Virus record (IMG/VR): IMGVR_UViG_3300031999_001882
Span: 80,308 to 144,307 of that record
DNA: 64,000 bases
Strand: one strand, 5' to 3'
DNA from: a virus
Below the pieces are notes generated by a model. That model did no database searches, was not told where the DNA came from, and saw nothing but the letters and a program-made list of their open reading frames with translations. The translations under genes and the position numbers were made by a program. Shown in pieces: positions 35,805 to 56,923 of this stretch. The first letter of the stretch is position 1. Every line of letters starts with the position of its first letter.

Positions 35805-36032
35805 CTACCCGTTGCGTTGCCCGTTACTGCTTGCCACGGCTCTTAACGCCTTCAAAGTATCTTCATCCAGACGTGATCCTAAGCTGAAATCCAACCTCTC
35901 TGGCCGGGCTTGCGCCGGGCGCTCTTGTCTTACAAACGCCTGCGGCTGACGACGAACGACCTTCTGCATCGGCCTTACGGCCTGAGTCTTTCGATCTAAG
36001 AGTTCTACAGCCCGGTCGAGACTTCCCATCAT
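35805..36032 (-). CDS. Small arginine/glutamine-rich protein
   Basis: 75 residues. A helical N-terminus (SLDRAVELLDRKTQAVRPMQ), a basic QR-rich middle, and LDEDTLKALRAVASS at the end. It overlaps the giant gene's stop by ATGA. The 72-bp gap after it is AT-rich. Nucleic-acid or virion packing protein possible; unknown. Confidence 0.5.
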   Translation of the reverse strand: MMGSLDRAVELLDRKTQAVRPMQKVVRRQPQAFVRQERPAQARPERLDFSLGSRLDEDTLKALRAVASSNGQRNG

Positions 36033-39000
36033 TTCGTTGGTTCGAGTTCTTTCTCAGCGATAGTAAATTGCGATCCAGTACGCTGGCCGTAAGAATCCAG
36101 CGTAATCACTTCATAGCTTTTGTCCGCAGAGATCGCAGAAGCCACACGCTTGATGATCTCGGCTTTGTCACCGGACACCAACCAGACGTGAGAGCCTTCC
36201 GCGAAGCGATACCCGGCGTTCTTGAAGAAGTCGGCTGTCGATTGAAGCTTCATAGAGAGCTTTTTGCGGCGAAGCTTCTTGGATTCTTTGTCCAGCTCCC
36301 ACGCGCTTCCTACAAGGTCCGAGGACTTGAACTGATCGAAGTAGCGGGCCGCACGCTGGGCGGCTTGCGCTGGCGGCAGATCGGACTTGGTAGCGATCTG
36401 ATCCAAGAGCGCAGTAACGGCGGCTTTGACATCGCCGCCTCTCAGGTAAGCTTCTTCGCCAGCCTTCCAGACCTTTGAAATGTCCATCATATTGATCTGG
36501 TAGCCATACACCGCATCTTGAATGAGGTGCGCCATCTCATCCTTTTGCTTGCGCGTAATCTTGCCGGGAACTGCCGCCTGTTTCTCCACAGATGTGTCGC
36601 CGCCGATAATCCCGTTCTCAACAAACTCGTCCTTCAATTCAGGGAACCGCTCGGCGAGCTGTTCAAAATAAGCCCCCCATTCAGCGAGTTCGCCGTAGCT
36701 GAGGTTCTGCTGACTCACCCAATTCTGCCAGCCTATCGCATAATCTCTGGCTTCTTGGGCAGTCTTGAGGACAGCATAGGGAGCCTTCTTGAGTTCTTTG
36801 GCCGCCGTGACTTCGGCAGTCGCAGGAGTGGCTTCGGCTTCCTTGGCCTTCTCCTCTTTGCGCTTGGCCCGGTCCTCCTGCTGTTCCTTGAGCCGCTTCT
36901 CCATCTTCTCAAGCGCGTCCACGGTTGACGCGATCTCTGAGGGGTCGGCTTTGTCCACATCCAAATCCTTGAGCTTGCGCCGGAGCGACTTCACCTGATC
37001 CGACAATCCTGATTCGACTTCCATGCTGGCCTCCTTTAACTCGAACGGTTCTTCTCCTGCATAGGTGAAGATGGTTTTGCCAGTCTCCGCCAAGTCCTCT
37101 AAAGGAGAACGCAACTCATACTGCGGATACCACCAAAACTTTGGCTTGCTTCCGAAATCAATCTCTCCGTTGTCATCCAAGCTTCCATCGGAGATGATGA
37201 GCGAATCAGTCAAAGCGCCGATCTGCTCTGGCCGAACTAACATATAGCCGTTGCCAAACATCGGCTCAAGATAATCCAGCAAACGCGAATCGCTCTGATC
37301 CTCAACATCCTGTCGGATTTCCTCTAAATCATCACCCGTTGCGGTGATCTCAAGATTCTTATTTGGCAGAACCTTCCAGCTTATACCGCCGCGAGCCTTC
37401 TTCTCCATTGACCCAAACGCACTCCCGGTCATAATACCCAGCGCCGCCTGCACGCCTCCGGCATCTGCCCCGGCCCCGATAAGCGCCTGCGAGATGATGT
37501 GAAGCATCACCTTGCCTTGGCTCTTATACTGGTCCAAGACCCCCATGTAATCGCCGTAGTGCCCCTTGGTGGTGGCGGGCTTGCTCTCGATGTGCTTGAC
37601 CATCTCGATGATGTCCGGGTCTTTCGACAGCATATCAATGGCCTGCTTAATCTTCTGCTCTCTGGACACTTCCGGCCCGCCGAAGCGATCTAAGCTGGCC
37701 GCCATCTCCATCGGCTCCTCCGGTTGTGCTTTGGCCTTGCCGATTTCCTCCGCATTGGCATCTTGCGCCTGCTGGATCGCGGCCTTGATTCCGGCCTCGT
37801 CGCCCTCAGTCGCATCACTCAAATAGCGGCGAATCTGGGTCTGAATCTTGGAGGTGGTCACCGAATACTTCTGCGTGTTGAAGAAGGTTTCTCCGGTGTT
37901 GCTTCGGAACACGATGGGGGTCGCATAGTTCACCAGCGCCCAGCCACCCGGATACTTCTGGATGGTCAAGTGCTCTGTGCCCCAGCGATCCCGCTTGTCT
38001 TTGGGGAACGAATCGTGCGCGAACATCTCAATAACCTGCTCGTTGGAGGCGGCCTCAACCTTCATTGCGGCGGTCGGCTTGCCCGGCCACTCATCGCCTT
38101 CGGACATCGCCACGCAGTTCGCGTGCGCGAAAGAAGTCGGCATCACTTCCCCCGGCTCAGATTTGGAATCCACGATCATATCCCCGGCCTCGATTGCGTT
38201 GCCGCATATCGGGCACGTCTCTCCGATCTCTCCTTCTTCGGCAGATCGCGCCTCTAGCTTGGAATAACACTCGTTACACAACGCTTCGTTAGGGTCATCG
38301 CCTTCGCCCCAGCCTTCCGGCATCTCCACGGGCTTCCCGCATTGAGGACACGACACGCGCTGAGCGGCCTTCTGCTTGCGCCAGCTCTTGAACTCCTCGC
38401 TGTTGCGAACTTCGTCGCTTTCCTTCTTCTCCGGCGACTCGCGCCACTTCTTGTCCTCGTCTTGGAGCCGCTTCACGTCCTTCTGATTCTTGGGATTGTG
38501 TTCCAGAGGAGGCCAGCCAGAAGCGTCAACCTTGGTCGGCATATTGTCCGGGTCACAGCCGCATTCGTTGACGATATCATTCATCTTGCCGCAGGTCGGG
38601 CACTTGTGAATCCCGGCTTTGCGGTCATGCTTCTCGGCCAGCTCCTTCTCGAAATCCGCCAGCTCCTTACAATCCTTGCACCAGCGCGAGCCTTTCTCGG
38701 CATCGGCCTTGTGACAGAGCGTGCACTTCTGGGCGGAGGTCACCACTTGAAGGCCGCCGTGGTCATCCAAGAACCAGATGGTCGGATAGAAATTGCCCTG
38801 ATCCACCGCTTTGACGGCGGCAATCAGCTCGTCCCACTCCGGCGACTCGGCGAGCTTCTTACCGCTCTGATAAGCGGCGTACATCCCGCCAAGCTGTCCT
38901 TCGGTCTGGATCACGATATCGTCCTCGGCAGGCTCCTGCATCTCCTCCGAGTCAAACTCCTCCACCTCGGCTTCGGCTGTGCGCTTGCTGGCTTTCTTCT

Positions 39001-42000
39001 CTGATTTCTTTTGTTGCAGGATGGCTTCTGCTTCCTTGATTCGCTTGGCAACATACGCCTGCGTGCCCTTATCGGTCACATCGTTCATGCGACTCATCCA
39101 GTTATCAATGAGCGCTTCCAGCTCGGCTACTGATTTATCCTTGAGATCGCTGGCTGTGCGCTTGCTGGCGATGGTGTCTTTCCAATAAACCCAAGCGACC
39201 GTCACCTTGTCATTCTCCACTTCGTCGATCTTGACGGCATAACCCGCCGAAGCATAAGCGCCCTTCACGCCGTTAAAGCCCAGCTTCGCCAGATCACCAT
39301 TGGGTTCCACAACCTCGAACTCGCCCAGATCAAAGATGTTCCCGTCATACCGGAAGAAGTCGCCCTCTCCGTTCTCGACGTAATCCAGCTCCTTCTTCTC
39401 CTCGTCAGTCAGTTGAGAATAATCCATGAGCGGAACAGTCTGCTCGTTCTTAACCACCAATCCAGTCGGCCCCGCTTGGTCATCGGCCTTCTTTTCAAGG
39501 GGTGGTTTCCGGTGCTTAACCGGGATATAGTGATGTTCGTCATCCAAGCATTTGTCGCATTGTCCACGTCGTTCGCGTGTCTCGTTGTCGTGATTTTTGA
39601 GCGGGTGTCTGCATACGGCACATGGCGGGGCATCAACATTCTCTTTGAGCGGAGCATCAGCCTTGCGTCTGGCGGCCTGCGTCGGCGGCTTGCCCTGTAG
39701 CTCGGCAATGCCTGTGCTGATCCCTTCGCCCACGCCACGGTCGTACTCCTCCCACAGCTCATCAGCATTCTCGGCCTTGTTAAAGGCGCTGGCAAGAAAC
39801 TCGAAGGGCGTATATTGCCGACCATTCTGCTCGGCCTCAAACGCTTCGTCGGCGATCTTTTCCACGTCGAGATTGCCTTGGGCATCTTTATAGCCTTGGA
39901 ATTCGCCCTTGTTCGTGATGATGATGTTGAATCCCTCGTCATAGCCCATGCGGTACGCTTCATCCGGCATGATCGGTTCTTCTGCGCCCCGGCGACCCAG
40001 CGCCGAATAGAGACGCACCTTGGCTTCTTTGGAGAGCGGCTTGAGCGAGGACTGCTTGGTGGGTGGAATGTCGCCTTCTTCCAGATGCTCGATCTCGCCG
40101 CTCTCGGTGAACGCCAGATCATTGGCCTCCGCATCCTCTTTGATGTATTCGTCGGACTGCTGGTACTCAAGCTCGGCATAGCCGTCCTTCTCAAGCTGAC
40201 TACACAACTCCTGACGAACCTCGTCGATATACTGGATGAACTCGACGTACAGCTTCTCAAATTCCTCCGTGGACATCCCGGCTTCTGCGGCCAGATCATC
40301 CATGCTTCCGGGGGTATTGTCCTCCACCTTGACGGTGTATTTGTGGGAGTAATGATGGTCGATGCTCTTGAGGTCGATGTAAAGCGACTCATAGAACTTG
40401 GCGAAGATATTGAACCGCTCGTTCGGGTGCGCTTGCAGGAACTTCGCCACGTCCATGTGCGCGGTAAAGCTCACGCCGGAACCCTGCGTCGAGCTGAGAT
40501 CGTAATTCACCTTCGGGTTCACAAACCCGTGCTCTTGCAAATCGCTCTCGGCATTCTCTTTCCAGAAATCAACGTCCGCCATTTCGTAATACTTATAGCG
40601 CACCTTGTCCTTGGCCTTCTCATCCAGATCATCGAAGGTAAAGAGATCGACCTTCCGGTAGAAGGTGTGCTTGGGCTTGCGCGGCTCGTCGGCAAATCGC
40701 TTCATAAAGCTCTCCTTGGCGGCGAGGCGCGAAGCCTCTTTGCTGATATTCTTGGCATAGGCCATCGCTTCTTCGCGTGAATCAAATGTCTTGTTGCCAG
40801 CGCCGGACTTATCCCGCTCGCCGCCGTGCTGAATGCCATCCACCAGCACCATGAACTTTCCGCCCAAAGCTTCCTTGATCGAAACATTCTCAGGCATCGA
40901 CGACTTCCTTGTGCGCCGCCCGACGCGCTGTTCCGTCGGATTCACATAGACATTGTTATCCTGATCCTTGAAGAAGTCAGCGCCAAAAGAATCGAACTGG
41001 CCGCCGTTACGTTCATAGGGATCGAGAAACACCAGCTTGAAGTCCGTCGCCAAATCGCTGGCCGACATATAAAGGAACTCTGTGTTCGGCTCCTCGTCCT
41101 CTTTAAGCGGCTCGCCCGTCAGCGCTTGGTAATCCTCTTTGCTCCAATCGTTCGCATAGACCCGGAGAACCATCTCTGCCGTCTCGACTTCTCCACCCGG
41201 CGGGACCAGCATATAGACTCGATGGCCGCTCTGCATATCGGTGTCGGTCAAAAGAGTCCAGCCCGTGCGAATCTCTCCGATGTTCTCTACCGCATTCCAG
41301 TCCACCTGAGTCTTGAGCGCTTCGCCATCGCCTTGAGTCAGCTCGGCGGGCAATGTCTTGAGCATTGCCACGGCTTCCGCGCCACTACCTTCCGCATATT
41401 CGGTCAGGGTAGCCGAGTAATTCACCTCGGTCCGCGCCCAATCCAAGAGGAATGCCAACTGCTCATCAGTCAGCGCGGCGGCTTTGCGGCTCACCTTCTT
41501 AGCTTCAAACTCTTTGCGGTGTTCTTTCTCCTGCGAGATGGCGTGGTCCAGCACTTCCTTGAGCGCTGGGCTGGCATCTTCCTTCTGCCCGCGATACTCG
41601 TCGATAGCGGCCTGCTCCTGCTCCACATCGCGCTTGACGATCTCAGCATCCCGGTCGGCTTTGCGCTTGGACGCGAAGGGCATCTTCATCTGCGCGGGGT
41701 TCTCTGGCGGTGTCAGCTCTTGTTTGATCGCTTGGTGAACGCCGGAGTCCTCGGCATACTTCAACAGGTCTTTGGCATCCATAAAAGCTTCACCGTTGTT
41801 TTCAAAGGACGACTCCACAGCTTCCCATAAGAGTTGAAGCACGCGCTCGGAAGGCTCATACGCTTCGAGTGCTTCCTGCTTCTCCGCCGGAAGCTCCTTC
41901 GCCAAATCTTCCTTGACCCATTTCAGGGCTTCATCCTTACCCCATACGTCAAACGATTCCCGGTATTCCTGCTGTTCTGCATTCGTAAGAGCTTCCTCAT

Positions 42001-43363
42001 CAAGCACCGGATAATCGGCCATGTCGCGCTCAATGCCTTCGGCAATCGCTACCTTGTCGGCGGCATCTTTATGGACCAGCAAGAATTCAACCCAGCCCAC
42101 CGCCCAATGACCTGACTTTGCCACGACCACGCCATTGCCTTCGCCGCCCAAAGCTTTGAGCGCCGCATCGAAATTGGTTTTCTCAAGCGCTTCGGAGTCC
42201 CGGTTCTGCGTGAGCACGACATAATAATCGGAGTAGTCGTCGCCCATATAATTCTCGGCAGGCTTCCACAGTTCGAGCGCCTTGCGCTTTAAGCTGGCCG
42301 TGTCATAACGACCCTTGATGGGCGGCGCGGTCTTTTTGCCTGTGCCTTTGCAATAGGGGCACGTCTCCAAAGGCCCGGCTCCGGTGCGTGACTTCCCATA
42401 ACCAGCGCAATACTCACACTCTGCTCCGTCTGCCGCCTTCGCTGTCATGCCGCCCTCCAAATAGACGTTGCCATCGTCGCCAACAATAGCATCGCAGTTC
42501 CCGAAGGCTCTGGCAATGTCGCTCAGCTTCTCACCCACATCGCCCAGCCCGCGATCCCAGAAGCCCGCGCCATGCCCACAGCGCGTCAGCCAGAAGTCAT
42601 GGCCCGCCTGCTCATCGTCAATCTCATTTAAGAGATCGCCTGCTTGCTGGCGAAACGCCGCGCAATCGGCCTTGGCCTTCTCGATGCTCTCCGGGGCAAT
42701 ATCCTCGATCCCGAAGTTCTGATCCAGAGGTTCGCCGCCCGTCTCCGGGTCAGAGTTGTCGTTCGACGACCATAGCGCCGCTTCGAGATAGGCCGACACA
42801 AAGGGATCAAGCCCTGCGGCTTGCCGAGATGTCTTGGCCTGCTCATCGACCAGCCGCTTGTTGTGCTCGCCCTGCATATGCTCGAACGACTCCTCAGATT
42901 CATTTAAGGGTTCGCCCTTGGCTCGCTTGGCTTTGATCTTGGCTTCCATCTCCTCCTGCCACGCTACAGTCCCGAACTGAGCCGCCGACTTGGTTGCGGG
43001 CTTAACCTTGGCCCAGCACGCATCACACAGCGCCCCAAAATTCTGTTCGTTGAACATCCGCTCTCTGGCAGGCTGGCCGTCGTTCTTGCATTGGCGAGCC
43101 GCATCCCGGTTCCCGAAGTCCCGCTCTAAGATGCCCGTCTCGCAGGAGTCGCACAGCCCAGCCGCCGCGCCATAGGTATTGATGATGGTGTCCTTGCCAC
43201 ACTTCTTACACTTGCCTTGGGCGGCAGAGCGCTTGGAAGCCGCGCACGCGCAGGTTCCCCCGCAGGCGCACGTCTCCGACTCTTGACGAATTTTTGAAGG
43301 AGCTTTTTTGTCTTTTGGCTCCACGATATCTGTCCAATGATTTTTCAATACCGCTTTATCCAT
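36029..43363 (-). CDS. Giant 2444-residue multi-zinc-ribbon protein
   Basis: 2444 residues, by far the largest gene. It reads as beads on a string. Cysteine clusters lie at 32-40/52-55/71-74, C92/C113/C116, C316-C319 with C335-C338 (DnaJ-type CxxCxGxG), 1248-1272, 1547-1565, 1588-1603, 1672-1699 and 1717-1750. They alternate with compact alpha/beta domains and charged linkers. The linker pentapeptide SKR-[STK]-A occurs four times (residues 43-47, 565-569, 1400-1404, 1459-1463), with related RKAA and RKAD sites between. This suggests either proteolytic processing sites or a repeated module-joining sequence. The C-terminal domain (ending EKELEPTK) is alpha/beta. Likely a virion-internal or inner-body protein; enzymatic function unknown. 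Confidence 0.7.
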   Translation of the reverse strand: MDKAVLKNHWTDIVEPKDKKAPSKIRQESETCACGGTCACAASKRSAAQGKCKKCGKDTIINTYGAAAGLCDSCETGILERDFGNRDAARQCKNDGQPARERMFNEQNFGALCDACWAKVKPATKSAAQFGTVAWQEEMEAKIKAKRAKGEPLNESEESFEHMQGEHNKRLVDEQAKTSRQAAGLDPFVSAYLEAALWSSNDNSDPETGGEPLDQNFGIEDIAPESIEKAKADCAAFRQQAGDLLNEIDDEQAGHDFWLTRCGHGAGFWDRGLGDVGEKLSDIARAFGNCDAIVGDDGNVYLEGGMTAKAADGAECEYCAGYGKSRTGAGPLETCPYCKGTGKKTAPPIKGRYDTASLKRKALELWKPAENYMGDDYSDYYVVLTQNRDSEALEKTNFDAALKALGGEGNGVVVAKSGHWAVGWVEFLLVHKDAADKVAIAEGIERDMADYPVLDEEALTNAEQQEYRESFDVWGKDEALKWVKEDLAKELPAEKQEALEAYEPSERVLQLLWEAVESSFENNGEAFMDAKDLLKYAEDSGVHQAIKQELTPPENPAQMKMPFASKRKADRDAEIVKRDVEQEQAAIDEYRGQKEDASPALKEVLDHAISQEKEHRKEFEAKKVSRKAAALTDEQLAFLLDWARTEVNYSATLTEYAEGSGAEAVAMLKTLPAELTQGDGEALKTQVDWNAVENIGEIRTGWTLLTDTDMQSGHRVYMLVPPGGEVETAEMVLRVYANDWSKEDYQALTGEPLKEDEEPNTEFLYMSASDLATDFKLVFLDPYERNGGQFDSFGADFFKDQDNNVYVNPTEQRVGRRTRKSSMPENVSIKEALGGKFMVLVDGIQHGGERDKSGAGNKTFDSREEAMAYAKNISKEASRLAAKESFMKRFADEPRKPKHTFYRKVDLFTFDDLDEKAKDKVRYKYYEMADVDFWKENAESDLQEHGFVNPKVNYDLSSTQGSGVSFTAHMDVAKFLQAHPNERFNIFAKFYESLYIDLKSIDHHYSHKYTVKVEDNTPGSMDDLAAEAGMSTEEFEKLYVEFIQYIDEVRQELCSQLEKDGYAELEYQQSDEYIKEDAEANDLAFTESGEIEHLEEGDIPPTKQSSLKPLSKEAKVRLYSALGRRGAEEPIMPDEAYRMGYDEGFNIIITNKGEFQGYKDAQGNLDVEKIADEAFEAEQNGRQYTPFEFLASAFNKAENADELWEEYDRGVGEGISTGIAELQGKPPTQAARRKADAPLKENVDAPPCAVCRHPLKNHDNETRERRGQCDKCLDDEHHYIPVKHRKPPLEKKADDQAGPTGLVVKNEQTVPLMDYSQLTDEEKKELDYVENGEGDFFRYDGNIFDLGEFEVVEPNGDLAKLGFNGVKGAYASAGYAVKIDEVENDKVTVAWVYWKDTIASKRTASDLKDKSVAELEALIDNWMSRMNDVTDKGTQAYVAKRIKEAEAILQQKKSEKKASKRTAEAEVEEFDSEEMQEPAEDDIVIQTEGQLGGMYAAYQSGKKLAESPEWDELIAAVKAVDQGNFYPTIWFLDDHGGLQVVTSAQKCTLCHKADAEKGSRWCKDCKELADFEKELAEKHDRKAGIHKCPTCGKMNDIVNECGCDPDNMPTKVDASGWPPLEHNPKNQKDVKRLQDEDKKWRESPEKKESDEVRNSEEFKSWRKQKAAQRVSCPQCGKPVEMPEGWGEGDDPNEALCNECYSKLEARSAEEGEIGETCPICGNAIEAGDMIVDSKSEPGEVMPTSFAHANCVAMSEGDEWPGKPTAAMKVEAASNEQVIEMFAHDSFPKDKRDRWGTEHLTIQKYPGGWALVNYATPIVFRSNTGETFFNTQKYSVTTSKIQTQIRRYLSDATEGDEAGIKAAIQQAQDANAEEIGKAKAQPEEPMEMAASLDRFGGPEVSREQKIKQAIDMLSKDPDIIEMVKHIESKPATTKGHYGDYMGVLDQYKSQGKVMLHIISQALIGAGADAGGVQAALGIMTGSAFGSMEKKARGGISWKVLPNKNLEITATGDDLEEIRQDVEDQSDSRLLDYLEPMFGNGYMLVRPEQIGALTDSLIISDGSLDDNGEIDFGSKPKFWWYPQYELRSPLEDLAETGKTIFTYAGEEPFELKEASMEVESGLSDQVKSLRRKLKDLDVDKADPSEIASTVDALEKMEKRLKEQQEDRAKRKEEKAKEAEATPATAEVTAAKELKKAPYAVLKTAQEARDYAIGWQNWVSQQNLSYGELAEWGAYFEQLAERFPELKDEFVENGIIGGDTSVEKQAAVPGKITRKQKDEMAHLIQDAVYGYQINMMDISKVWKAGEEAYLRGGDVKAAVTALLDQIATKSDLPPAQAAQRAARYFDQFKSSDLVGSAWELDKESKKLRRKKLSMKLQSTADFFKNAGYRFAEGSHVWLVSGDKAEIIKRVASAISADKSYEVITLDSYGQRTGSQFTIAEKELEPTK

Positions 43364-44633: not shown

Positions 44634-47600
44634 CTACGAAACAGACAACACTTGATCGAGGACATCCATCGCCTGAGCTTCTGTGAGCTTGAACTCACGC
44701 ATCAAATCCTCGGCAATTTCATCCTCATTGGCCTGACCCAGCCGAACAAGATCACGGGCCAAATCAAGAGCGCTGTTCGTAGGAATATCCGGCTCGGTCG
44801 GTCCTCGCTTCGGATATACGTCGCGTGTTCCAGTTTCTACAGCATCTTCAAATTGATCGCGGTAAGTGGCCGGGGCGCTTTGCCCCGGTGCTTCTGTCGG
44901 GCCGCCCTTCTCTGCGTCCGTGTCGGTATGCGCGTGCATATCGTTGGTCTTGAGACTGAACGGTTTGACCCAGCCCCAAGACACCATGCGCCCATAAATC
45001 TCCGTGGCAGACATCCCTGTGCCGCCGCCTGTCTCCGCCGCATAGCGCTGTGCCAGTACCTCTGCCTGCTTCTCATCAAGGAACGCATGATCCGGTTCGA
45101 TGTCTGTGCCAAGAAATTCGCGGGCCAAGACCAGCAAAGACTCCTGCTCGTCCTCCGCCCGGCGCTTGATCTCGGCCACCTTCTCGTTGCCGGAGAGCGA
45201 GGCTTCCAGCTCAAGGAGCCGGACAAAAGCCGGAGCGCCCTTCGCGGAAGCCGCAACCCACTCAAACCCACTATTGGATTTAGCGGTGCGCCAGCCGGGG
45301 TTGCCCTGAACCAGCGAGCGCCATTCATCGAACTCCGTGGCTTTCACAAAGCCAGCGCCAGACTTCACAAATATGATCCGGCCAATGACCTTGGGGGCCG
45401 GGCGCGGCGTTGGGGCTGAGGGCGGCGTGCGGACCACAGGCTCCTCGCCGGGGGCCGGGTTAGACTCCGGCTCTGGCTCGGCGGCGGGCGCAGGCTTCGG
45501 CGCTTCGCCTTTAATCTGATCCACCGGGGTCGGAGGCATGACTGGCCCGCCAGCCGGGGCAGATTCGTCCGGCTTCGGTTCCTTCGGGGGCGGCTCCTCA
45601 ATCCCGGTCTGCTTGGATAGCTGGTCGTGAATCTTCCGCACGTCCTCTTTGGTGTATTTGAGCTGGTTGCGAGAAAGCCATGTGTAGATTTCGTGCTGGA
45701 TTGCGTCGAACTCCATGCCTTTGAGCTTTTCTAAGGTCACCAGCTCAAGGATTCGGTTCGCCACATAGACAGGTTGGAGGGAGATCGCGGCCTTCACAGT
45801 CCCGCCGCGCTTGCCGGAGCCGCCACAGTCCGGGCAATCCACGAAATGCCAGCCATCCTCGGAATGCTCCTTGGCCTCTTGCTCGGCCCATAGCTTCTTG
45901 AACACTTCCCGGCTGTCGTCCGCCTTGACCGGAACAAAGCCCGTGCCTTCGCAATGGCCTTGGCACATGGTCGCCGGGTCAGGCAAAGCCATGCCCAGCG
46001 CCTCGTAGCGGTCCGATGCCTTTTTGCCGGGAAGCCTTGCCTGCACCACCAGATAGCCGCCGTCACCATCCTCGCCAATCACCTGAGCGCCGGAGCCAAA
46101 ATTCACTTCCGTGGCTTCGCCATAGCGCCGCGCATCTGCCTTGGCCTTGGTCACCCACATGGCATTGATCGCCGGGATGCCTTCAAACTTGGCCCATTGG
46201 TCTTGGCCGATGTAGCTGGCCGCCGGGTTGCCCAGCTCCTCGACTTCGTGGCGCACGACATCGGCCACGCTCTCCTTGCCATGCTGATACCCGGTGTCGG
46301 CGCGGTACGCCTTGCCGTTCCAAGGGTAAGGGAACTTACCGGGAATCCCGGTGTCTCCGGCCACGGCCCCATTTCCCGGTATGCCAGCCGCCGCCTTGAT
46401 ATCGGCCCACGTCATCAGGTCCGCAGGAATGTCCGGCAAAATGTCCGGGGCTTTTGGTTGTAAAGACAATGCTTTCTTGGTGTTCTGCATCGGGATGATG
46501 GCGGCGGACTTGTCCACAGTATCCACAGACTTACCCACATTGCCGACCTTAAAAGATAGTTTCGTTTCTTGTGGAACAATTCTTGGAGCTAAGCTGTCGG
46601 GGTATGCGCTCTCAGGTTGCACAGGTGGCACATCCAAACCACCATGAACGGGTTGCTGTAATTCGTGTGACGCATCTCTGAATTTTGGCTCCCGCACTTG
46701 GCGCACGGTTCCTTCTTTATCAGACCCTTTTTGACGTAATATCTCGACAGCTTCCTCATGCTCACCTTCTCCGCTTGCGCCGGAGTGAGGGGCTTTTTCG
46801 TTCGTGGTTGTCGAGGGAGAGTTCTTAAAATCTCTTGATGGTGTGCGTGATGGCATGGACGACACAGCCACACTATTTCCAGAGGCTTGCTGTGATCTGG
46901 ATGGTGCATTTGAGAGATCGGATTCCCGCACAGAGCGCAAGGCTCCATCACTTTCTCCTTGCCTCGCCGAAGATGATTCCAAGCAATCTGCCGCGCTTTT
47001 TTTCTCATCTTCTGCGCTTCCGTCAGAGGGCGACCCTTGCTCCACACCAGCATATACTCCCTCATGTATTTCCGATGACACATGAGGCAACGTCCATTGC
47101 CGCGCATTCTCTTTTGGCCGCACAAGCACAGAGTCGAATCCATGATCGTCAATTATAGACCACTTTTTAAGGCTACTCCAAACTTTCAAATCCTCAATGG
47201 ACACATCCACGTTGGTCAAATTCTCCCAGAACTCCTTGCCCTCCGGCTCATACTCGATGCCGGACTCGATCTCGGCGCTCAGATTCAGCTTCATCTCGCC
47301 GTCTTTCACGCCCGTGGCCTTGTTCACCAGCTCTACAAAGACCTCGGCAAACACCAGCCCCTCGTCCTGATCCATCCCGGTCACGATGATGTTCGGCTTG
47401 AACGCCGCGAAATCTAGCTCCAAATAGCTCGACACCAGATCGGGCAACACATCAAGCGTGTGAAATTCCACCTGCTCCGACCAGCGCCATGCCGCGCCCT
47501 CGCGCTCGCCTTCGGCTGGCGTAGGGGTGCGTGGATCGTCAACCTTCATGGTCTTAACGCTAGGCCCTTTGGCCTTCTCTGGTAAACTTGCGCCACCAGC

Positions 47601-48944
47601 CTCCGGCGGCTTCGCCGCACGGGGAGGCTCCGCCTCCGCATCGCCGCTCTCAGGTTGATTCGCCTTATCTGGCGAATCGTTTTTGATCTTGGTATGTTCT
47701 GATACCGCTTTTTCGTTGGTATGTTCTGATACCAGCTTGGGGGGATGATCCTCTATGCGGCGCGGCTCGCCGGGTTCTTGCGCGGTCCGGGTGACCGGGG
47801 AGTAATCGGTGACCATCTGGATGACCTCAGTCGCATTGGCCTGAACGTAATCGTCGAAAGCTCTGGTGATAAACCCATGATCGCAGGCCAGAGCGCTCCA
47901 CAGCCGCAGGTCGTCCGGGGCCAGCTCCATGCCTTCTTCCAGCCACGAAATGACCTCTGGCAACAGTTCTTGGCCGAACCATGATGCCTGCCTCTTGGCT
48001 CGCTTATCGTCCATTGGTGTGATGCCTTGGTCGATCACTTCCTTGACCTGAGACACATCCTCCGGGGCCAGTTGCGGGGCTTCGTCGGCATCACCCATGA
48101 TCTTCTCCAAGGTTTTCCACAGCCAGATATAGCCGAACTTTTGCAGGTACTTAAACCGGATGTTCTCTTTAGAGTCCGGCTGATACCCTTCATCCCGTTG
48201 GTCCGAGATATCTTGGGCCGTTTGCATCACATCCACCAGCTCTTGCTCAAGCTCCTCGGTCCGCTCCTTGAGCCTTTGCTGAAACTTCAACCGGGCCTGT
48301 CCGTCCATGTTGGACATGGCTTCTTTCAGCGCTTCGATATTCTTCACATCGCGCTTGGCTTTGCCGATGGTCATGTCCAGATCAGACGCGATGGATTCTG
48401 AGTCGTCGATGATCTTCTGGTAAATCTCCTGCGGGTCCATGTCCAAATCCACGGTCCTTGGTTCCTTGATCCATGCGTCCGATGACAAATTGTAGTCGCC
48501 GTCGGTGATATGCGGCTTCATATGGGGAGTTTCAAATGAGAACTCCAAGGGATGCTGAGTGCCCGGCACGATGAACTTCTCGGCTCTCATCGCGTCCTTG
48601 TACGAGTCCAGCACATCGTCCAAGGCACTCTGATCCAAGCCCGGATACTCGGCTTGGAGAGTCGGCCAGTCCACGATGATGTGAACATCCAAATCAGATC
48701 GAGAATTGTATTGGTATGAGGTGAGTGACCCGATGATATGAAACTGATTAACCCACGGCTCGCCATCCAAGAAAGCCTTGGCCTGTGAGAAGATGAACTC
48801 TTTGATCTCTGGGCGCAGAGTGCCGTCATCCTGCCATACGTCCGGGTCCAGACCGGGGCGGGCATAGTCCAGCACATTCGCCACCCGGACAGATTTAGAC
48901 TTCGGGGTGAATTTAGTCCTTCGCCTTAAATTAGTCGTCGTCAT
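44634..48944 (-). CDS. Giant multidomain protein with nucleotidyltransferase domain (interrupted by HNH)
   Basis: Open for 1436 codons. Residues 65-140 are a Pol-beta-type nucleotidyltransferase: FHIIGSLTSYQYNSRSDLDV (G72-S73, D84, D86), with a third acid at E134. Helical and proline-rich regions follow. From about residue 600 to 785 the frame is low-complexity and serine-rich, and coincides with an HNH gene read in another frame (46589-47143), so this part is probably not host protein. The C-terminal part (from about 790) has compact domains, a DnaJ-like zinc cluster (CQGHCEGTGF and FVDCPDCGGSGK), a VKAAISLQP linker and a proline-rich stretch. Whether one protein or two are made is unresolved. 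Confidence 0.6.
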   Translation of the reverse strand: MTTTNLRRRTKFTPKSKSVRVANVLDYARPGLDPDVWQDDGTLRPEIKEFIFSQAKAFLDGEPWVNQFHIIGSLTSYQYNSRSDLDVHIIVDWPTLQAEYPGLDQSALDDVLDSYKDAMRAEKFIVPGTQHPLEFSFETPHMKPHITDGDYNLSSDAWIKEPRTVDLDMDPQEIYQKIIDDSESIASDLDMTIGKAKRDVKNIEALKEAMSNMDGQARLKFQQRLKERTEELEQELVDVMQTAQDISDQRDEGYQPDSKENIRFKYLQKFGYIWLWKTLEKIMGDADEAPQLAPEDVSQVKEVIDQGITPMDDKRAKRQASWFGQELLPEVISWLEEGMELAPDDLRLWSALACDHGFITRAFDDYVQANATEVIQMVTDYSPVTRTAQEPGEPRRIEDHPPKLVSEHTNEKAVSEHTKIKNDSPDKANQPESGDAEAEPPRAAKPPEAGGASLPEKAKGPSVKTMKVDDPRTPTPAEGEREGAAWRWSEQVEFHTLDVLPDLVSSYLELDFAAFKPNIIVTGMDQDEGLVFAEVFVELVNKATGVKDGEMKLNLSAEIESGIEYEPEGKEFWENLTNVDVSIEDLKVWSSLKKWSIIDDHGFDSVLVRPKENARQWTLPHVSSEIHEGVYAGVEQGSPSDGSAEDEKKSAADCLESSSARQGESDGALRSVRESDLSNAPSRSQQASGNSVAVSSMPSRTPSRDFKNSPSTTTNEKAPHSGASGEGEHEEAVEILRQKGSDKEGTVRQVREPKFRDASHELQQPVHGGLDVPPVQPESAYPDSLAPRIVPQETKLSFKVGNVGKSVDTVDKSAAIIPMQNTKKALSLQPKAPDILPDIPADLMTWADIKAAAGIPGNGAVAGDTGIPGKFPYPWNGKAYRADTGYQHGKESVADVVRHEVEELGNPAASYIGQDQWAKFEGIPAINAMWVTKAKADARRYGEATEVNFGSGAQVIGEDGDGGYLVVQARLPGKKASDRYEALGMALPDPATMCQGHCEGTGFVPVKADDSREVFKKLWAEQEAKEHSEDGWHFVDCPDCGGSGKRGGTVKAAISLQPVYVANRILELVTLEKLKGMEFDAIQHEIYTWLSRNQLKYTKEDVRKIHDQLSKQTGIEEPPPKEPKPDESAPAGGPVMPPTPVDQIKGEAPKPAPAAEPEPESNPAPGEEPVVRTPPSAPTPRPAPKVIGRIIFVKSGAGFVKATEFDEWRSLVQGNPGWRTAKSNSGFEWVAASAKGAPAFVRLLELEASLSGNEKVAEIKRRAEDEQESLLVLAREFLGTDIEPDHAFLDEKQAEVLAQRYAAETGGGTGMSATEIYGRMVSWGWVKPFSLKTNDMHAHTDTDAEKGGPTEAPGQSAPATYRDQFEDAVETGTRDVYPKRGPTEPDIPTNSALDLARDLVRLGQANEDEIAEDLMREFKLTEAQAMDVLDQVLSVS
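46589..47143 (-). CDS. HNH endonuclease nested in the 1436-codon ORF
   Basis: 184 residues from the ATG at 47143. LCLCGQKRMRGNGRCLMCHR is a zinc finger; CALCGNPISQMHHPDHSKPL and WLCRPCHHAHHQ form the HNH core. A second C-x2-C pair (CAKCGSQNSEMRH) occurs near the end. A TATAAT with TTGGAG 18 bases before it stands just upstream (47152-47181 on this strand), suggesting its own promoter. It is an insertion in a large structural gene whose frame happens to stay open through it. Confidence 0.8.
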   Translation of the reverse strand: MDSTLCLCGQKRMRGNGRCLMCHRKYMREYMLVWSKGRPLTEAQKMRKKARQIAWNHLRRGKEKVMEPCALCGNPISQMHHPDHSKPLEIVWLCRPCHHAHHQEILRTLPRQPRTKKPLTPAQAEKVSMRKLSRYYVKKGLIKKEPCAKCGSQNSEMRHTNYSNPFMVVWMCHLCNLRAHTPTA

Positions 48945-48961: not shown

Positions 48962-49186
48962 TCACTCGGAATGGGTCATTATCTTCTGCGTAAAGTACGG
49001 ATCGAAAAATTCCCAAATCCTCGCGCTCAACGGCAATTTCCTTCTCAACCTGATCTTGATAGAAAACGGTCCTCTGTGATGCCCATTGCTGTTCTCGCTA
49101 TGCCCGTTGCCGTTCCCGTTTGTTTTATGGTGGCCGTTCCCGTTAATTTGTAAACGGTGGTGGCCCCGCCCTATCCATAAGCGCAT
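48962..49186 (-). CDS. Possible small protein with Asn/Gly/His repeats
   Basis: Open for 74 codons; start uncertain. A simple repeat NGNGHHKTNGNGNGHSENSN precedes a basic helix IKIRLRRKLPLSARIW. The repeat is also a DNA-level simple repeat (AACGGGAACGGC units). An alternative overlapping frame reads well but has no good start codon. Low confidence. Confidence 0.35.
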   Translation of the reverse strand: MRLWIGRGHHRLQINGNGHHKTNGNGNGHSENSNGHHRGPFSIKIRLRRKLPLSARIWEFFDPYFTQKIMTHSE

Positions 49187-49451
49187 AATGCACCCCTAAA
49201 GGAATTCTGGTTCTCATATAGTCATTCATTCGGTTTACCTGCACCCAGACATCTTCATCACGCTTCCCGACAAATCCGAGGCACGGCCAAAACTCGCCCT
49301 TAACATAATGCCGCATAAACACAGGACAAAAAGGAAATTGAGAAAAAAACCAAGAGTCTCGCGCCGTGATCGTTCCAAAGACCGTCTTATACGGTTCCGG
49401 CGGATCAATCTGTTCTCCATTTGGCAAGAAATGTCGTAGCTCATGCTTCAA
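49143..49451 (-). CDS. Unknown small protein
   Basis: 102 residues with a TTG start after GAGGGGGC. It is an aromatic-rich sequence (DSWFFSQFPFCPVFMRHYV, FWPCLGFVGKRDEDVWVQV). No family recognised. It follows a chain of micro-membrane genes. Confidence 0.5.
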   Translation of the reverse strand: MKHELRHFLPNGEQIDPPEPYKTVFGTITARDSWFFSQFPFCPVFMRHYVKGEFWPCLGFVGKRDEDVWVQVNRMNDYMRTRIPLGVHYALMDRAGPPPFTN

Positions 49452-49461
49452 CGCCGCCCCC

Positions 49462-49569
49462 TCATCCCAGCCCGCGCATAATCGTGCTCATCAGCGCACG
49501 CCGGAAGGCAACGACCGCAAGAGCAATCCCCAGCCCAATGCCTCCGATGACGCACAGAGCAAAGCTCAT
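49462..49569 (-). CDS. Micro-membrane protein (35 residues)
   Basis: ATGA overlap with the 22-residue gene. MSFALCVIGGIGLGIALAVV is a glycine-rich membrane helix followed by a basic tail (FRRALMSTIMRGLG). Very likely single-pass. Confidence 0.6.
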   Translation of the reverse strand: MSFALCVIGGIGLGIALAVVAFRRALMSTIMRGLG

Positions 49570-49634
49570 TGAACCACCATCGTGAACACCTTGGCTCCTA
49601 TCATCGCTACCCAGATGATTGCCCAGAGCGGCAT
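49566..49634 (-). CDS. Micro-membrane protein (22 residues)
   Basis: TAATG overlap with the WTK-leader gene and ATGA with the next. The peptide is almost entirely one hydrophobic helix (MPLWAIIWVAMIGAKVFTMV). Its coupling on both sides supports translation despite its size. Confidence 0.5.
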   Translation of the reverse strand: MPLWAIIWVAMIGAKVFTMVVQ

Positions 49635-49804
49635 TACCGGATGCCTCGCACGTCGCTTGCCAAGCTTTCCAGCTCGACCGCGATCCCTTCCGTGTCGCCC
49701 GGTTCCATCGCCCCGCCTTCCAACTGGTCAGCGATCATCCTCAACTGCTGAGCCATCTGCTTGAGAAAAGGCGCGTTCGGTGCGGCTGTTTTGGTCCAAG
49801 ACAT
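49634..49804 (-). CDS. Small WTK-leader protein
   Basis: 56 residues from the ATG at 49804, chosen because AAGGAG precedes it. MSWTKTAAPNA is followed by a helical body (FLKQMAQQLRMIADQLEGG, VELESLASDVRGIR). One of the clearest leader bearers. Confidence 0.7.
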   Translation of the reverse strand: MSWTKTAAPNAPFLKQMAQQLRMIADQLEGGAMEPGDTEGIAVELESLASDVRGIR

Positions 49805-49814
49805 AATGTTCTCC

Positions 49815-50072
49815 TTATTGAGTGTAGCCAATAGCGATCTCGCCTACGGTCACGGCGGCTTCATCGCCCTCGGCATATTTTTTGTTCACAATGATGATCT
49901 TCTTACCGCCGTGCTTAATGTAGAAATGCGGAACCGGATCAAAAGAGAAATCAATGTCCTTCGGCTTAAACAAGGACTCCAATGGCTTTCTCAGGCTCAC
50001 CAAGGTTTTGCCCTCAGCGAGCTTGGCGATCTGATCCAGCACAGGGTCGGCGGCAATCTTTGTCCAGCTCAT
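49815..50072 (-). CDS. Small WTK-leader protein
   Basis: 85 residues after GGAGG. MSWTKIAADPVLDQIAK is followed by an alpha/beta body (KPKDIDFSFDPVPHFYIKHG, GKKIIIVNKKYAEGDEAAV) that is different from the other leader proteins. Unknown function. Confidence 0.7.
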   Translation of the reverse strand: MSWTKIAADPVLDQIAKLAEGKTLVSLRKPLESLFKPKDIDFSFDPVPHFYIKHGGKKIIIVNKKYAEGDEAAVTVGEIAIGYTQ

Positions 50073-50073
50073 A

Positions 50074-50334
50074 TCAGCCTCCGATATATTCTGCGCCAGC
50101 CAGCCCGATCACCCATGCCCCGGATGCCGACCCATAGACTCCGCTTGAGAAATCCAAGCCATTTGGGAAATCGTGCGAGCCGGGCGGCAACACTACCGTC
50201 ATCGTGATCCCGTTGGCTCCCGTCGCGCTGTCAAAGAGCTGGACCGTCCCGGCGCTCGACACCTGCACGCTCGTCACCTTCCCTGTCCCTAAAGTCGCCT
50301 GCGCGTTTCCTGTTCTCCAAACTGGTTTCGCCAT
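50074..50334 (-). CDS. Small beta-sandwich virion-like protein
   Basis: 86 residues after AGGAGG. Strands VTSVQVSSAGTVQLFDSAT, ITMTVVLPPGSHDFPNGLDF and SGVYGSASGAWVIGLAG follow the pattern of small phage capsid or fibre-attachment domains. No catalytic residues. Immediately upstream of WTK-leader genes. Confidence 0.6.
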   Translation of the reverse strand: MAKPVWRTGNAQATLGTGKVTSVQVSSAGTVQLFDSATGANGITMTVVLPPGSHDFPNGLDFSSGVYGSASGAWVIGLAGAEYIGG

Positions 50335-50342
50335 ACTGCCTC

Positions 50343-50462
50343 CTATTTCTTAATCAAGAATGCAAAAACAGCCACAATCACCACGAACACCGCATACCAA
50401 ATCCACATCCACAGAAACTCTTTCTTCTCACTCTCAGTCAAGGGGTCGTCGTCGTAGCCCAT
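50343..50462 (-). CDS. Micro-membrane protein (39 residues)
   Basis: GAGG lies just before the ATG. A charged head (MGYDDDPLTESEKKEF) precedes a membrane helix (LWMWIWYAVFVVIVAVFAFL) and a KK tail. The ribosome-binding site of the next gene lies over its stop codon. Confidence 0.6.
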   Translation of the reverse strand: MGYDDDPLTESEKKEFLWMWIWYAVFVVIVAVFAFLIKK

Positions 50463-50466
50463 CGCC

Positions 50467-50604
50467 TCAAAGCTTTTTCACCAGCTCACAGTTTTTGAAG
50501 TCTGTGCCCTTCACATCCTGACAGTCCTTGACCAGAACACGATGACTGCACGCCGAAAGAACGGCAGACGCACAGCACAACAACGCCAGAATGAGCTTAC
50601 GCAT
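50467..50604 (-). CDS. Small lipoprotein (45 residues)
   Basis: MRKLILALLCCASAVLSAC is a full lipoprotein signal with an LSAC lipobox, giving a mature peptide starting at cysteine 19 (SHRVLVKDCQDVKG...). The two further cysteines could form a disulfide. Phage lipoproteins include Rz1-type spanins, but this one lacks proline richness and has no partner nested with it. It also overlaps the neighbouring gene. Confidence 0.65.
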   Translation of the reverse strand: MRKLILALLCCASAVLSACSHRVLVKDCQDVKGTDFKNCELVKKL

Positions 50605-50797
50605 GAGTAGTCCTCGCATGATAAAGTTCCGCCTGCCATCGTTTCACGTCCCTGAGCATTGCCTGAAACTTGGCCTTGGGCAATGGACCGGGGTTATCGC
50701 GCATCAAAATGATGTCCGAGAGTGCGATCTCAAACATCGCCAGATGGTTCTTGAGCACCAGATAGAAGGCTTCGGCTTCAAGCTGTGCCAGTCTCAT
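50597..50797 (-). CDS. Small helical protein, paralog of 51062-51256
   Basis: 66 residues. NPGPLPKAKFQAMLRDVKRW aligns with NEQPINVETLQSLLRNVKES of the second copy, and both begin with an amphipathic helix and end QAxL. A duplicated pair flanking a zinc-binding gene. Function unknown. Confidence 0.55.
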   Translation of the reverse strand: MRLAQLEAEAFYLVLKNHLAMFEIALSDIILMRDNPGPLPKAKFQAMLRDVKRWQAELYHARTTHA

Positions 50798-54220: not shown

Positions 54221-56923
54221 TTAAACTCTCGAATGTAGTCTGGCCTTCACGCCTTCGCCCGTCTCCGAAGTGATGGACACGATCTCGCCTTCGTCATCCA
54301 TCGCACCTAAATTCTCGGATACTATTTCACCTTCGTCAAATCCTAAAAGCCCCATCGGTTGCAAAAGTACCTTGACCGCGCCGCAAATGGTGTCGGCCAC
54401 GTCCTTTGAATTATGAACAACCACCCCTGCCGATAAAGAAAAGTTAGACCATTTCTCAACGGAGAGATCATAAACAGGAACAGGCTCTTTAAGGTGGACA
54501 GGAATAATCACCCTAACTTTGTGATTGGTTTCCTTCCCCGAAAACTCTTTCCACTCACGAAACCCATGATCCCCAAGAACACGCACGACGACATTGCGGC
54601 CACAACGAAGCAATCGAGCCGCAACGCCAGCGTTCTCCGCCTGATTTATAACGCCGCGCAAAGAATCAATGGTGATATCTCCACGGAAATTTCCATTATG
54701 ACTGGCTCGATTTTTAAGCCATTCATCAGACGCTTGCGCCATCGTGCGGCTCATTGCCTCTGAATGTTTCTTTCGCCCTTCAACGCTGAGGTTAAATTCC
54801 TGAGCCTTCTGATAAAGTTTGCGCCGCCATGCCAAATCTGTTTTGTGGCGATGCGCCGTATGATGACGCGCATGGTCAATCAGAGACTCAATTTGAAGAT
54901 TTGAAGGCCGATTGTCTGTCTTGTTCCCGTTTTTATGATGAACCAGAAACTCATTCGGAATATCGCCGAAACAATGACGAAAGACCATGTGATGAGTCAA
55001 CTGTTTAAAGGCGTGTCGATCTGAAACCGATTCATAACCGCCATTGACAGGCCAAAATCGGTTACACGGCATCAGGCGATCAACGCCGGGAATCAAATCA
55101 GAAGCCGCCTTGTATGACCCATCCCTCAGCATCCACAGATGATTCGTCGTACATCGGACAGTCGCGCCAGAATCCAAAACAACATCCACCAAATCCGTTA
55201 CATACTTCGTCATACGGCCTTTGGCTTTCCCCGGCACAATCCGTCCATCAGATGAGCAAGAATAGACCCACACTTCTTTCCCGGCAAGCTCGGCTATCGT
55301 CGGGATCGTTCCATCCAAAAGCGGAATCCGCGTATCGCCAACAAAACAGCCCGTGTCCGGGTGATCGACCCGGATGCCGTTGATGATTTCCAGAGCCTTG
55401 AGTTCGGTGATCTGCCGCTCATAATTCAACAGACCGATCTTGCCGAAGTAAATGCGCTCCTTGAGATTGCGGTAATCCTGCAAGTCCAGTCGGTACGTCT
55501 CGCAATGGATCGAGGCCGAATTCAACGTCTGAACCATCTGCGCCGAATTCCATTGGTCAAAGTAAACGCCCTTCACAATGATCTTAGCCGAAATCAGCTT
55601 AATGATCTCCTCGATATTCGGGAAGCTGACGATCAGTTGCTTCTTGGGGTCCGGCTCCCATGCCGTCACACCGTCCTGAATAAAGTGGATGTCCTGTACG
55701 CCGCCGGGCATGATGTATTTCTCGGCATGGAAAATAGAGAAGCCCGCGCTGTCGGAACTCAAGCCAAGATCAATGGTGATGACGTGCTCATGCCGGACGA
55801 ACGACGGCAGGTTCCATCGCCTGATCCGCTTCTTGATATAGCGGCCCTCGATATAATCCTCGAACTCAATGATCGGAGCGCGGTTCTCGATGATGATATC
55901 CACCATCTCCGGCTTCTCGATGAAGGGAGATTCCGCGCCCGGCGGCAAGCACATATACTTGGCTTTGGCATCGGTGGGGTCACGGTCGAAGTGTTCCTTG
56001 AACTCTAACGGAACTTTGTGACCCTCAAAGTCGAACCACTTGCCGGAAAAACAGGACGGCGGCTTCACTTCCCATGTGAACGCTTTGTCAGCGTAAACGT
56101 GCATCTTGTCCTGCGCCCACTTAAACATCTTCTCAATGAAATCGCCTTCGTAGCGCGGGTAGGAGAGGAGAAAGCCTTTGACGGATGTACCGAAGCGGGA
56201 CTTGGCCGAGGAGTCGAGCATATTGTAAATCTTCGACGCATTGCGGGTCTGGGTCTTGTCCTTAAACGCGCTGATTTCATCACACACATACGCGAGGATG
56301 TTCATGCCCTCGGTGGATTCCTGCTCTGAGTGGCGGGAGAAAGCGCGGAGACGTTTCGGAAAGAAAATCGAATTCTGGTTGATGACGACCAGATTGGCGT
56401 ATTCCCAATCCTCGGTCGGTTCCACGAAGCGCCCGGACATCTTGATCGGATACTTCCGCTTGAGCCATCCCCAATTCAGCACATTGTTCTTGAGCTTGTC
56501 GAAAAAGACGTTCAGCGCTTGGCTGGCCGAGTATGCGACGTTGATGGAGTCAATCGCGTCGCGTGGCGCGATGCCGGGAAACATCGCCTGCGGGCGGCGC
56601 ATACAAAGGAGGACGTAATTAACGTAGAGGATGATGTGACAGGAGATCGTGTCCTTGCCGGAGCCTTTGCCCCATTCGAGAATCGCTGTTGAGTTATCGT
56701 TAGAAAAAATCTTTTTGGGGTCATCCCCTAAAACAAAATCGGCGACCTGATATTGTCGGTCGCCGTAAGGCGGAAATCCCATATGGTCCGGGGAAGTAAT
56801 AAATTGCTTAAAGGTCACCGGATTCTCGTCCCAAAATACTGAGGAAAGCGATTTACCGGAGATCACCGATTTGTTGGTGACCAACGATTCTTCACCGAAA
56901 GCATTGAGGAGGCTAAGCGTCAT
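54221..56923 (-). CDS. terL: Terminase large subunit with intein
   Basis: 900 residues including an intein (residues 526-838); the mature protein would be 587. Walker A is GKGSGKDT (85-92) and Walker B ILAYVCDEI with D215/E216. The nuclease domain shows VITIDLG (D385), GVYFDQW (D456) and, after the intein, SKDVADT (D841/D844). The terminase packages DNA into the head through the portal. The start is preceded by a hairpin and T tract with no Shine-Dalgarno. The intein sits just before the third nuclease acidic motif, the usual position for insertions at conserved catalytic sites. Confidence is high. Confidence 0.93.
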   Translation of the reverse strand: MTLSLLNAFGEESLVTNKSVISGKSLSSVFWDENPVTFKQFITSPDHMGFPPYGDRQYQVADFVLGDDPKKIFSNDNSTAILEWGKGSGKDTISCHIILYVNYVLLCMRRPQAMFPGIAPRDAIDSINVAYSASQALNVFFDKLKNNVLNWGWLKRKYPIKMSGRFVEPTEDWEYANLVVINQNSIFFPKRLRAFSRHSEQESTEGMNILAYVCDEISAFKDKTQTRNASKIYNMLDSSAKSRFGTSVKGFLLSYPRYEGDFIEKMFKWAQDKMHVYADKAFTWEVKPPSCFSGKWFDFEGHKVPLEFKEHFDRDPTDAKAKYMCLPPGAESPFIEKPEMVDIIIENRAPIIEFEDYIEGRYIKKRIRRWNLPSFVRHEHVITIDLGLSSDSAGFSIFHAEKYIMPGGVQDIHFIQDGVTAWEPDPKKQLIVSFPNIEEIIKLISAKIIVKGVYFDQWNSAQMVQTLNSASIHCETYRLDLQDYRNLKERIYFGKIGLLNYERQITELKALEIINGIRVDHPDTGCFVGDTRIPLLDGTIPTIAELAGKEVWVYSCSSDGRIVPGKAKGRMTKYVTDLVDVVLDSGATVRCTTNHLWMLRDGSYKAASDLIPGVDRLMPCNRFWPVNGGYESVSDRHAFKQLTHHMVFRHCFGDIPNEFLVHHKNGNKTDNRPSNLQIESLIDHARHHTAHRHKTDLAWRRKLYQKAQEFNLSVEGRKKHSEAMSRTMAQASDEWLKNRASHNGNFRGDITIDSLRGVINQAENAGVAARLLRCGRNVVVRVLGDHGFREWKEFSGKETNHKVRVIIPVHLKEPVPVYDLSVEKWSNFSLSAGVVVHNSKDVADTICGAVKVLLQPMGLLGFDEGEIVSENLGAMDDEGEIVSITSETGEGVKARLHSRV
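54410..55348 (-). mobile_element. HNH-bearing intein in the terminase
   Basis: 313 residues encoded in frame. Splicing block A starts CFVGDTRIPLLDGTIP; block B is GATVRCTTNHLWML with the conserved TxxH. The end is block F/G, VPVYDLSVEKWSNFSLSAG then VVVHN followed by S of the extein. Between them is an HNH endonuclease (FLVHHKNGNKTDNRPSNLQI), so the element can home. Cys at position 1, His-Asn at the end and Ser+1 are all present, so splicing should be functional. Confidence 0.92.

Follow-up and report, generated by a model that had tools for sequence, protein, structure and literature searches.

Four predicted micro-genes for envelope peptides at two sites in a packed operon of an uncultivated tailed phage

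Organization of the locus

The window analysed here, a stretch of 64,000 nucleotides, covers positions 80308-144307 of a virus record of 144,307 bases (G000), which belongs to an uncultivated tailed phage with recognisable genes for terminase, portal, head protease, primase and a DnaB-type helicase. Nearly all genes of the region lie on the minus strand, in the order terminase (56923-54221), g519, g180, g281, g64, g82, g66, lipo45, tm39, g86, wtk85, wtk56, tm22, tm35, g102, g1436 and then a 2444-aa gene. A packed gene chain spans 54.2 to 49.1 kb, and its two holes (50597-50334 and 49634-49451) are filled by four small ORFs, with junctions of -8 to +10 nt inside them. As the first-pass annotation of this DNA had proposed, these ORFs stand beside virion proteins, in that the operon adjoins packaging and probable virion genes. 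The neighbours on the minus strand are g66 (50597..50797), an accessory 66-aa gene upstream, g86 (50074..50334), a conserved 86-aa gene between the two sites, and g102 (49143..49451), a conserved downstream gene with a TTG start. A fold model of g86 was of too poor quality for use.

ORFs of 45 aa (with an LSAC lipobox), 39 aa, 22 aa and 35 aa had been claimed by that annotation, and all of them were found in place on the minus strand. At the upstream site, lipo45 (50467..50604) encodes a predicted 45-aa lipoprotein with the lipobox LSAC and Ser at +2 (MRKLILALLCCASAVLSAC, then SHRVLVKDC...); its mature part has 27 aa with two further Cys, and an alternative 50-aa form from the ATG at 50619 is possible. 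Its start overlaps the end of g66 by 8 nt, and it is followed after 4 nt by tm39 (50343..50462), a 39-aa ORF whose product has an acidic N-terminus and, at the C-terminal end, a single transmembrane helix that ends in KK; tm39 stands 8 nt before g86. At the downstream site, tm22 (49566..49634) encodes a 22-aa single-helix peptide, and tm35 (49462..49569), located 10 nt before g102, one of 35 aa in which the helix is Gly-rich and the C-terminus basic. tm39, tm22 and tm35 are all single helices without a periplasmic domain. The wtk56/tm22 junction is a TAATG with a 1-nt overlap and the tm22/tm35 junction an ATGA with a 4-nt overlap. The reported joining to leader-bearing WTK genes by such overlaps is therefore right for tm22-tm35, which are coupled to wtk56, and wrong for lipo45 and tm39, which sit upstream of g86. 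The usual cut-off of gene finders is 90 nt, which three of the four ORFs exceed; a length filter by itself would thus lose tm22 only, and not all four as had been supposed. Other parts of this genome hold further small lipoproteins and two more tiny membrane ORFs coupled by a TAATG (L006:17471-17721, L006:7311-7424, L006:8324-8611 and L007:3845-3970).

Coding potential of the four ORFs

The frequency of comparable ORFs by chance was estimated from 2000 dinucleotide-preserving shuffles per hole, in which two tandem membrane (hydrophobic) ORFs were scored. Such a pair arose in 0/2000 shuffles of each hole, and the real DNA has one in both; of the 1398 ORFs 20-50 aa long that shuffled minus-strand DNA contained, a single one reached the hydropathy cut-off. 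Codon usage was scored with a table trained on the large ORFs of the same genome, the four micro-ORFs lying outside the training set. Per-codon scores were 0.195, 0.106, 0.047 and -0.004 for tm39, tm22, tm35 and lipo45, respectively, all at least two standard deviations above the mean of the background of 77 wrong-frame scores (-0.230, sd 0.105), of which none exceeded 0.04. Hydrophobic composition itself may sway such codon scores. With its neutral score, lipo45 is the least secure on codon use, yet it has the clearest protein signature.

No homologues of the four were found in searches. The search with tm39 returned nothing, and no true match came from lipo45 or from a DNA pattern built on the C-terminal portion of lipo45; the sole hit of the pattern, in L034, lay inside a 494-aa ORF and was rejected as a chance match. 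Membrane-looking chance ORFs, neither functional nor translated, would fit the missing homologues, the neutral codon score of lipo45 and the lack of a clear ribosome-binding site for tm39, but the shuffles, the exact filling of the two holes in the chain and the excess of every codon score over the background make this quite unlikely. All four ORFs are very probably genuine small genes.

tm22 and tm35 are adjacent, overlap and hold one helix each, and joined they would give a hairpin of about 55 aa; they could accordingly be read as the halves of one two-helix membrane protein split by a frameshift or an assembly error. Against this, their junction is an exact ATGA overlap, which is a standard native arrangement, overlaps of 1-8 nt occur in 36 of the 154 pairs of adjacent minus-strand genes here, and the start of tm22 is itself an exact TAATG. 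A split protein is therefore considered unlikely.

Presence and absence in related phages

The closest relative found (G001, locus L001) is a 146,629-base record that is collinear with the window genome and shows identities of about 75% for terminase, 81% for portal and 95% for a 333-aa capsid candidate. Its flanking genes are kept in the order terminase-g519-g180/281-g64-g86-g102-g1436, with g86 (70-74% identical) directly after the g64-like gene and the g102 counterpart 5-6 nt after g86. At this locus of the relative there is no trace of lipo45, tm39, tm22 or tm35, and wtk85, wtk56, g82 and g66 are missing too. In a distant relative (G003; terminase 35%, portal 27-29%), no membrane-ORF chain is called downstream of terminase. 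The first-pass annotation had treated the four as one membrane complex and suggested a search for the same set in related genomes. The absence of all four from the closest relative, together with the missing chain in the distant one, leads to the rejection of a conserved complex, and the position of the ORFs at two separate sites around the conserved g86 also speaks against a single complex.

Among the called proteins of the window genome, 90/108 of at least 100 aa have a match in the closest relative as compared with 11/58 of the smaller ones, a difference that is partly one of sensitivity, short proteins being harder to match. The small genes thus form the variable layer of the phage, and the four micro-ORFs belong to this fast-changing layer at two separate sites around g86. 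Gain in the window genome and loss in the relative both fit and, for want of a closer outgroup, cannot be told apart.

Two further features of these genomes were observed. The terminase gene (54221-56923) carries an apparent in-frame intein with an HNH endonuclease at about residues 526-838, and the closest relative has no intein. Both phages have, within g1436 but in a different frame, a Cys-rich, HNH-like ORF of 187 and 197 aa, respectively (window 46589-47152, minus strand, and L001:17150-17743). Its identity between the two is 70.8%, as against 42.5% when this DNA is read in the frame of g1436, and it probably represents a genuine gene, nested or overlapping.

Spanin, lysis and holin readings

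The locus had been suggested to form a spanin-like complex, with lipo45 as the outer-membrane spanin and one of the membrane peptides as the inner-membrane partner. A spanin pair requires an inner-membrane protein with a periplasmic domain. lipo45 itself is a small lipoprotein with a signal peptidase II site (LSAC followed by S), an outer-membrane type residue at +2 and two Cys in its mature part, as would suit an outer-membrane spanin. No i-spanin-like ORF, taken as one with a helix at the N-terminus and at least 40 aa of periplasmic domain, was found on the coding strand between 44.6 and 57 kb; only an antisense ORF inside g519 passed, and the membrane peptides have no periplasmic domain. 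In the family search, lipo45 matched no lysis or spanin family, and it has no second hydrophobic segment (C-terminal transmembrane helix) such as a unimolecular spanin would need. About 119 kb away, a lipoprotein of 83 aa (L006:11585-11836, G000:C1) matches the Rz-like spanin family phrog_812 (E 5.6e-7) and is, on this similarity, probably the true o-spanin of the phage. A glucosaminidase-type endolysin candidate is located about 86 kb away (L008:3889-4662). The spanins of T4 likewise lie away from holin and endolysin and have no proline-rich stretch (PMC6139136), so the spanin reading was not judged by location or proline content on their own. It was nevertheless rejected for the missing partner and the better candidate elsewhere, and with all four ORFs also missing from the closest relative it is regarded as highly improbable.

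Holins can sit apart from the endolysin. Together with a hydrophobic gene next to it, the endolysin candidate occupies L008:3125-4662, some 86 kb from the micro-ORFs, a distance that makes a holin or pinholin reading less likely but not impossible.

Leader-bearing neighbours

Six otherwise unrelated proteins of the phage share an N-terminal leader, M(S/Q)WTKxA or MWTKTA, their genes starting at window positions 16572, 30827, 33983, 34180, 49804 and 50072 on the minus strand. The last two are wtk56 (49634..49804, 56 aa) and wtk85 (49815..50072, 85 aa), both with an MSWTK leader. The WTK genes were rejected as a single protein family, the leader being common and the bodies not. A 480-aa WTK protein keeps its leader in the closest relative (MQWTKNADVTPG). 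A homologue of wtk85 was found in G002, a record of 88,925 bases, possibly a fragment, in which portal similarity to the window genome is not detectable; the two are 72% identical in an alignment that begins only behind the leader, at the first residues of the body. The sequence upstream of this homologue resembles the leader of its next gene (MSFLKKIQAKYKLTA) and is, as sequenced, in another frame. In a dissimilar phage (L023:11244-12065, equal to about 4419-5240 of L019), the leader start of the wtk85 homologue joins the body via a frame change at ATG TCT TTT TTA AC, which could reflect either -1 ribosomal frameshifting on T TTT TTA or an error of assembly. A search of bacterial genomes with wtk85 gave only a 14-residue match, and a confident fold model of its body (pLDDT 86.9) had no match among known folds. 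The 2444-aa (36029-43363) and 1436-aa (44634-48944) proteins hold many internal (K/R)(K/R/T/S)xA motifs, several of which resemble the end of the WTK leader and are possible cleavage sites.

The internal proteins of T4, which are injected and diverse, have nothing in common but a capsid targeting sequence (PMC3012670). The WTK genes likewise give unrelated small proteins a shared short leader at their N-termini, and a leader that is shared within a phage and swapped between phages on the same body matches the prediction for a capsid-targeting tag. By this analogy, the WTK leader is probably a phage-specific targeting tag comparable to that of T4, and WTK proteins would be packaged into the head and their leaders cleaved. 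If these proteins were delivered with the DNA, the membrane peptides might aid entry, for instance as an infection pore. The leader common to six unrelated proteins, the wtk85 body conserved under a different leader in an otherwise dissimilar phage and the coupling of tm22 and tm35 to wtk56 argue for such an injected-cargo locus; the membrane ORFs, however, have no leader, and no membrane-peptide chain is attached to the remaining WTK genes, which start at 16.6, 30.8, 34.0 and 34.2 kb. Injected cargo is thus an improbable account of the locus. A wider version is held to be unlikely: wtk85 and wtk56 would be packaged into the head by a phage-specific tag, replaced whenever the cargo passes from one phage to an unrelated one, and the envelope would be the target of the companion peptides and lipoprotein, during entry or in defence against rival phages. 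The leader-tagged neighbours are a more promising lead than the membrane set.

Proposed explanation and significance

The best explanation as a whole, to which a probability of about 0.5 is given, is that the four genes encode lineage-specific accessory envelope peptides carried as optional cargo. The phage lineage would carry them as 'morons' at two operon junctions flanking g86, translated via coupling to the preceding genes and expressed with the late genes. In the infected cell, tm39, tm22 and tm35 would become single-pass inner-membrane peptides and lipo45 an outer-membrane lipoprotein; their most likely role would be to change the envelope of that cell, the peptides acting as independent small membrane effectors. 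The further lipoproteins and the coupled pair of tiny membrane ORFs elsewhere in the genome support this accessory-gene explanation.

LSAC followed by Ser at +2 would direct lipo45 to the outer membrane, by the sorting rule established for enterobacteria. Within the accessory-gene explanation, lipo45 could be a factor of the superinfection-exclusion type, as is Llp of T5, a small phage lipoprotein that blocks the receptor from the periplasm (PMC9586334). lipo45 is likewise a small lipoprotein, and it matched neither the Cor family phrog_1119 nor any other Cor/Llp family. A site among packaging and virion genes is unexpected for exclusion genes that act early and counts against this role. Exclusion is, by analogy, the likeliest specific role for lipo45, still speculative and, even if the rest of the explanation is right, rather less likely than not.

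The four micro-genes, very probably real, are of an ordinary kind, of which they are an unusually clean example, and their novelty is modest. If they are translated, much envelope-directed coding capacity would be hidden in the packed operons of uncultivated phages, and an envelope set would turn over completely between phages with 95% identical capsid candidates. If the reading of the leaders is true, homologous cargo under two different leaders, each specific to its phage, would provide a genomic signature by which head-packaged injected proteins could be found even in phages that have never been cultivated.

Comparison with known systems

Small novel phage genes have reportedly been described by Fremin et al. 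(2022). Those genes and the present ones are alike in being tiny and missed by ordinary annotation; unlike them, the present set is local, confined to two junctions of one uncultivated phage and without relatives found. The two-component spanins (lambda Rz/Rz1 and T4 PseT.3/PseT.2) share with lipo45 the lipobox and the outer-membrane type residue at +2; lipo45, in contrast, has no nearby inner-membrane partner with a periplasmic domain, and the Rz-like family match falls to a different lipoprotein of the same phage. Llp of T5 and Cor of T1-like phages resemble lipo45 as small, single-gene phage lipoproteins with an N-terminal lipobox, but the mature part of Llp has 61 aa versus 27 aa, and lipo45 has no match to their families and is not beside a recognised receptor-binding protein gene. 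As to the internal proteins of T4, the membrane peptides differ from them in having no leader, and the WTK leader differs in sequence from the T4 capsid targeting sequence; the WTK genes are like them in carrying a short N-terminal leader on otherwise unrelated accessory proteins.
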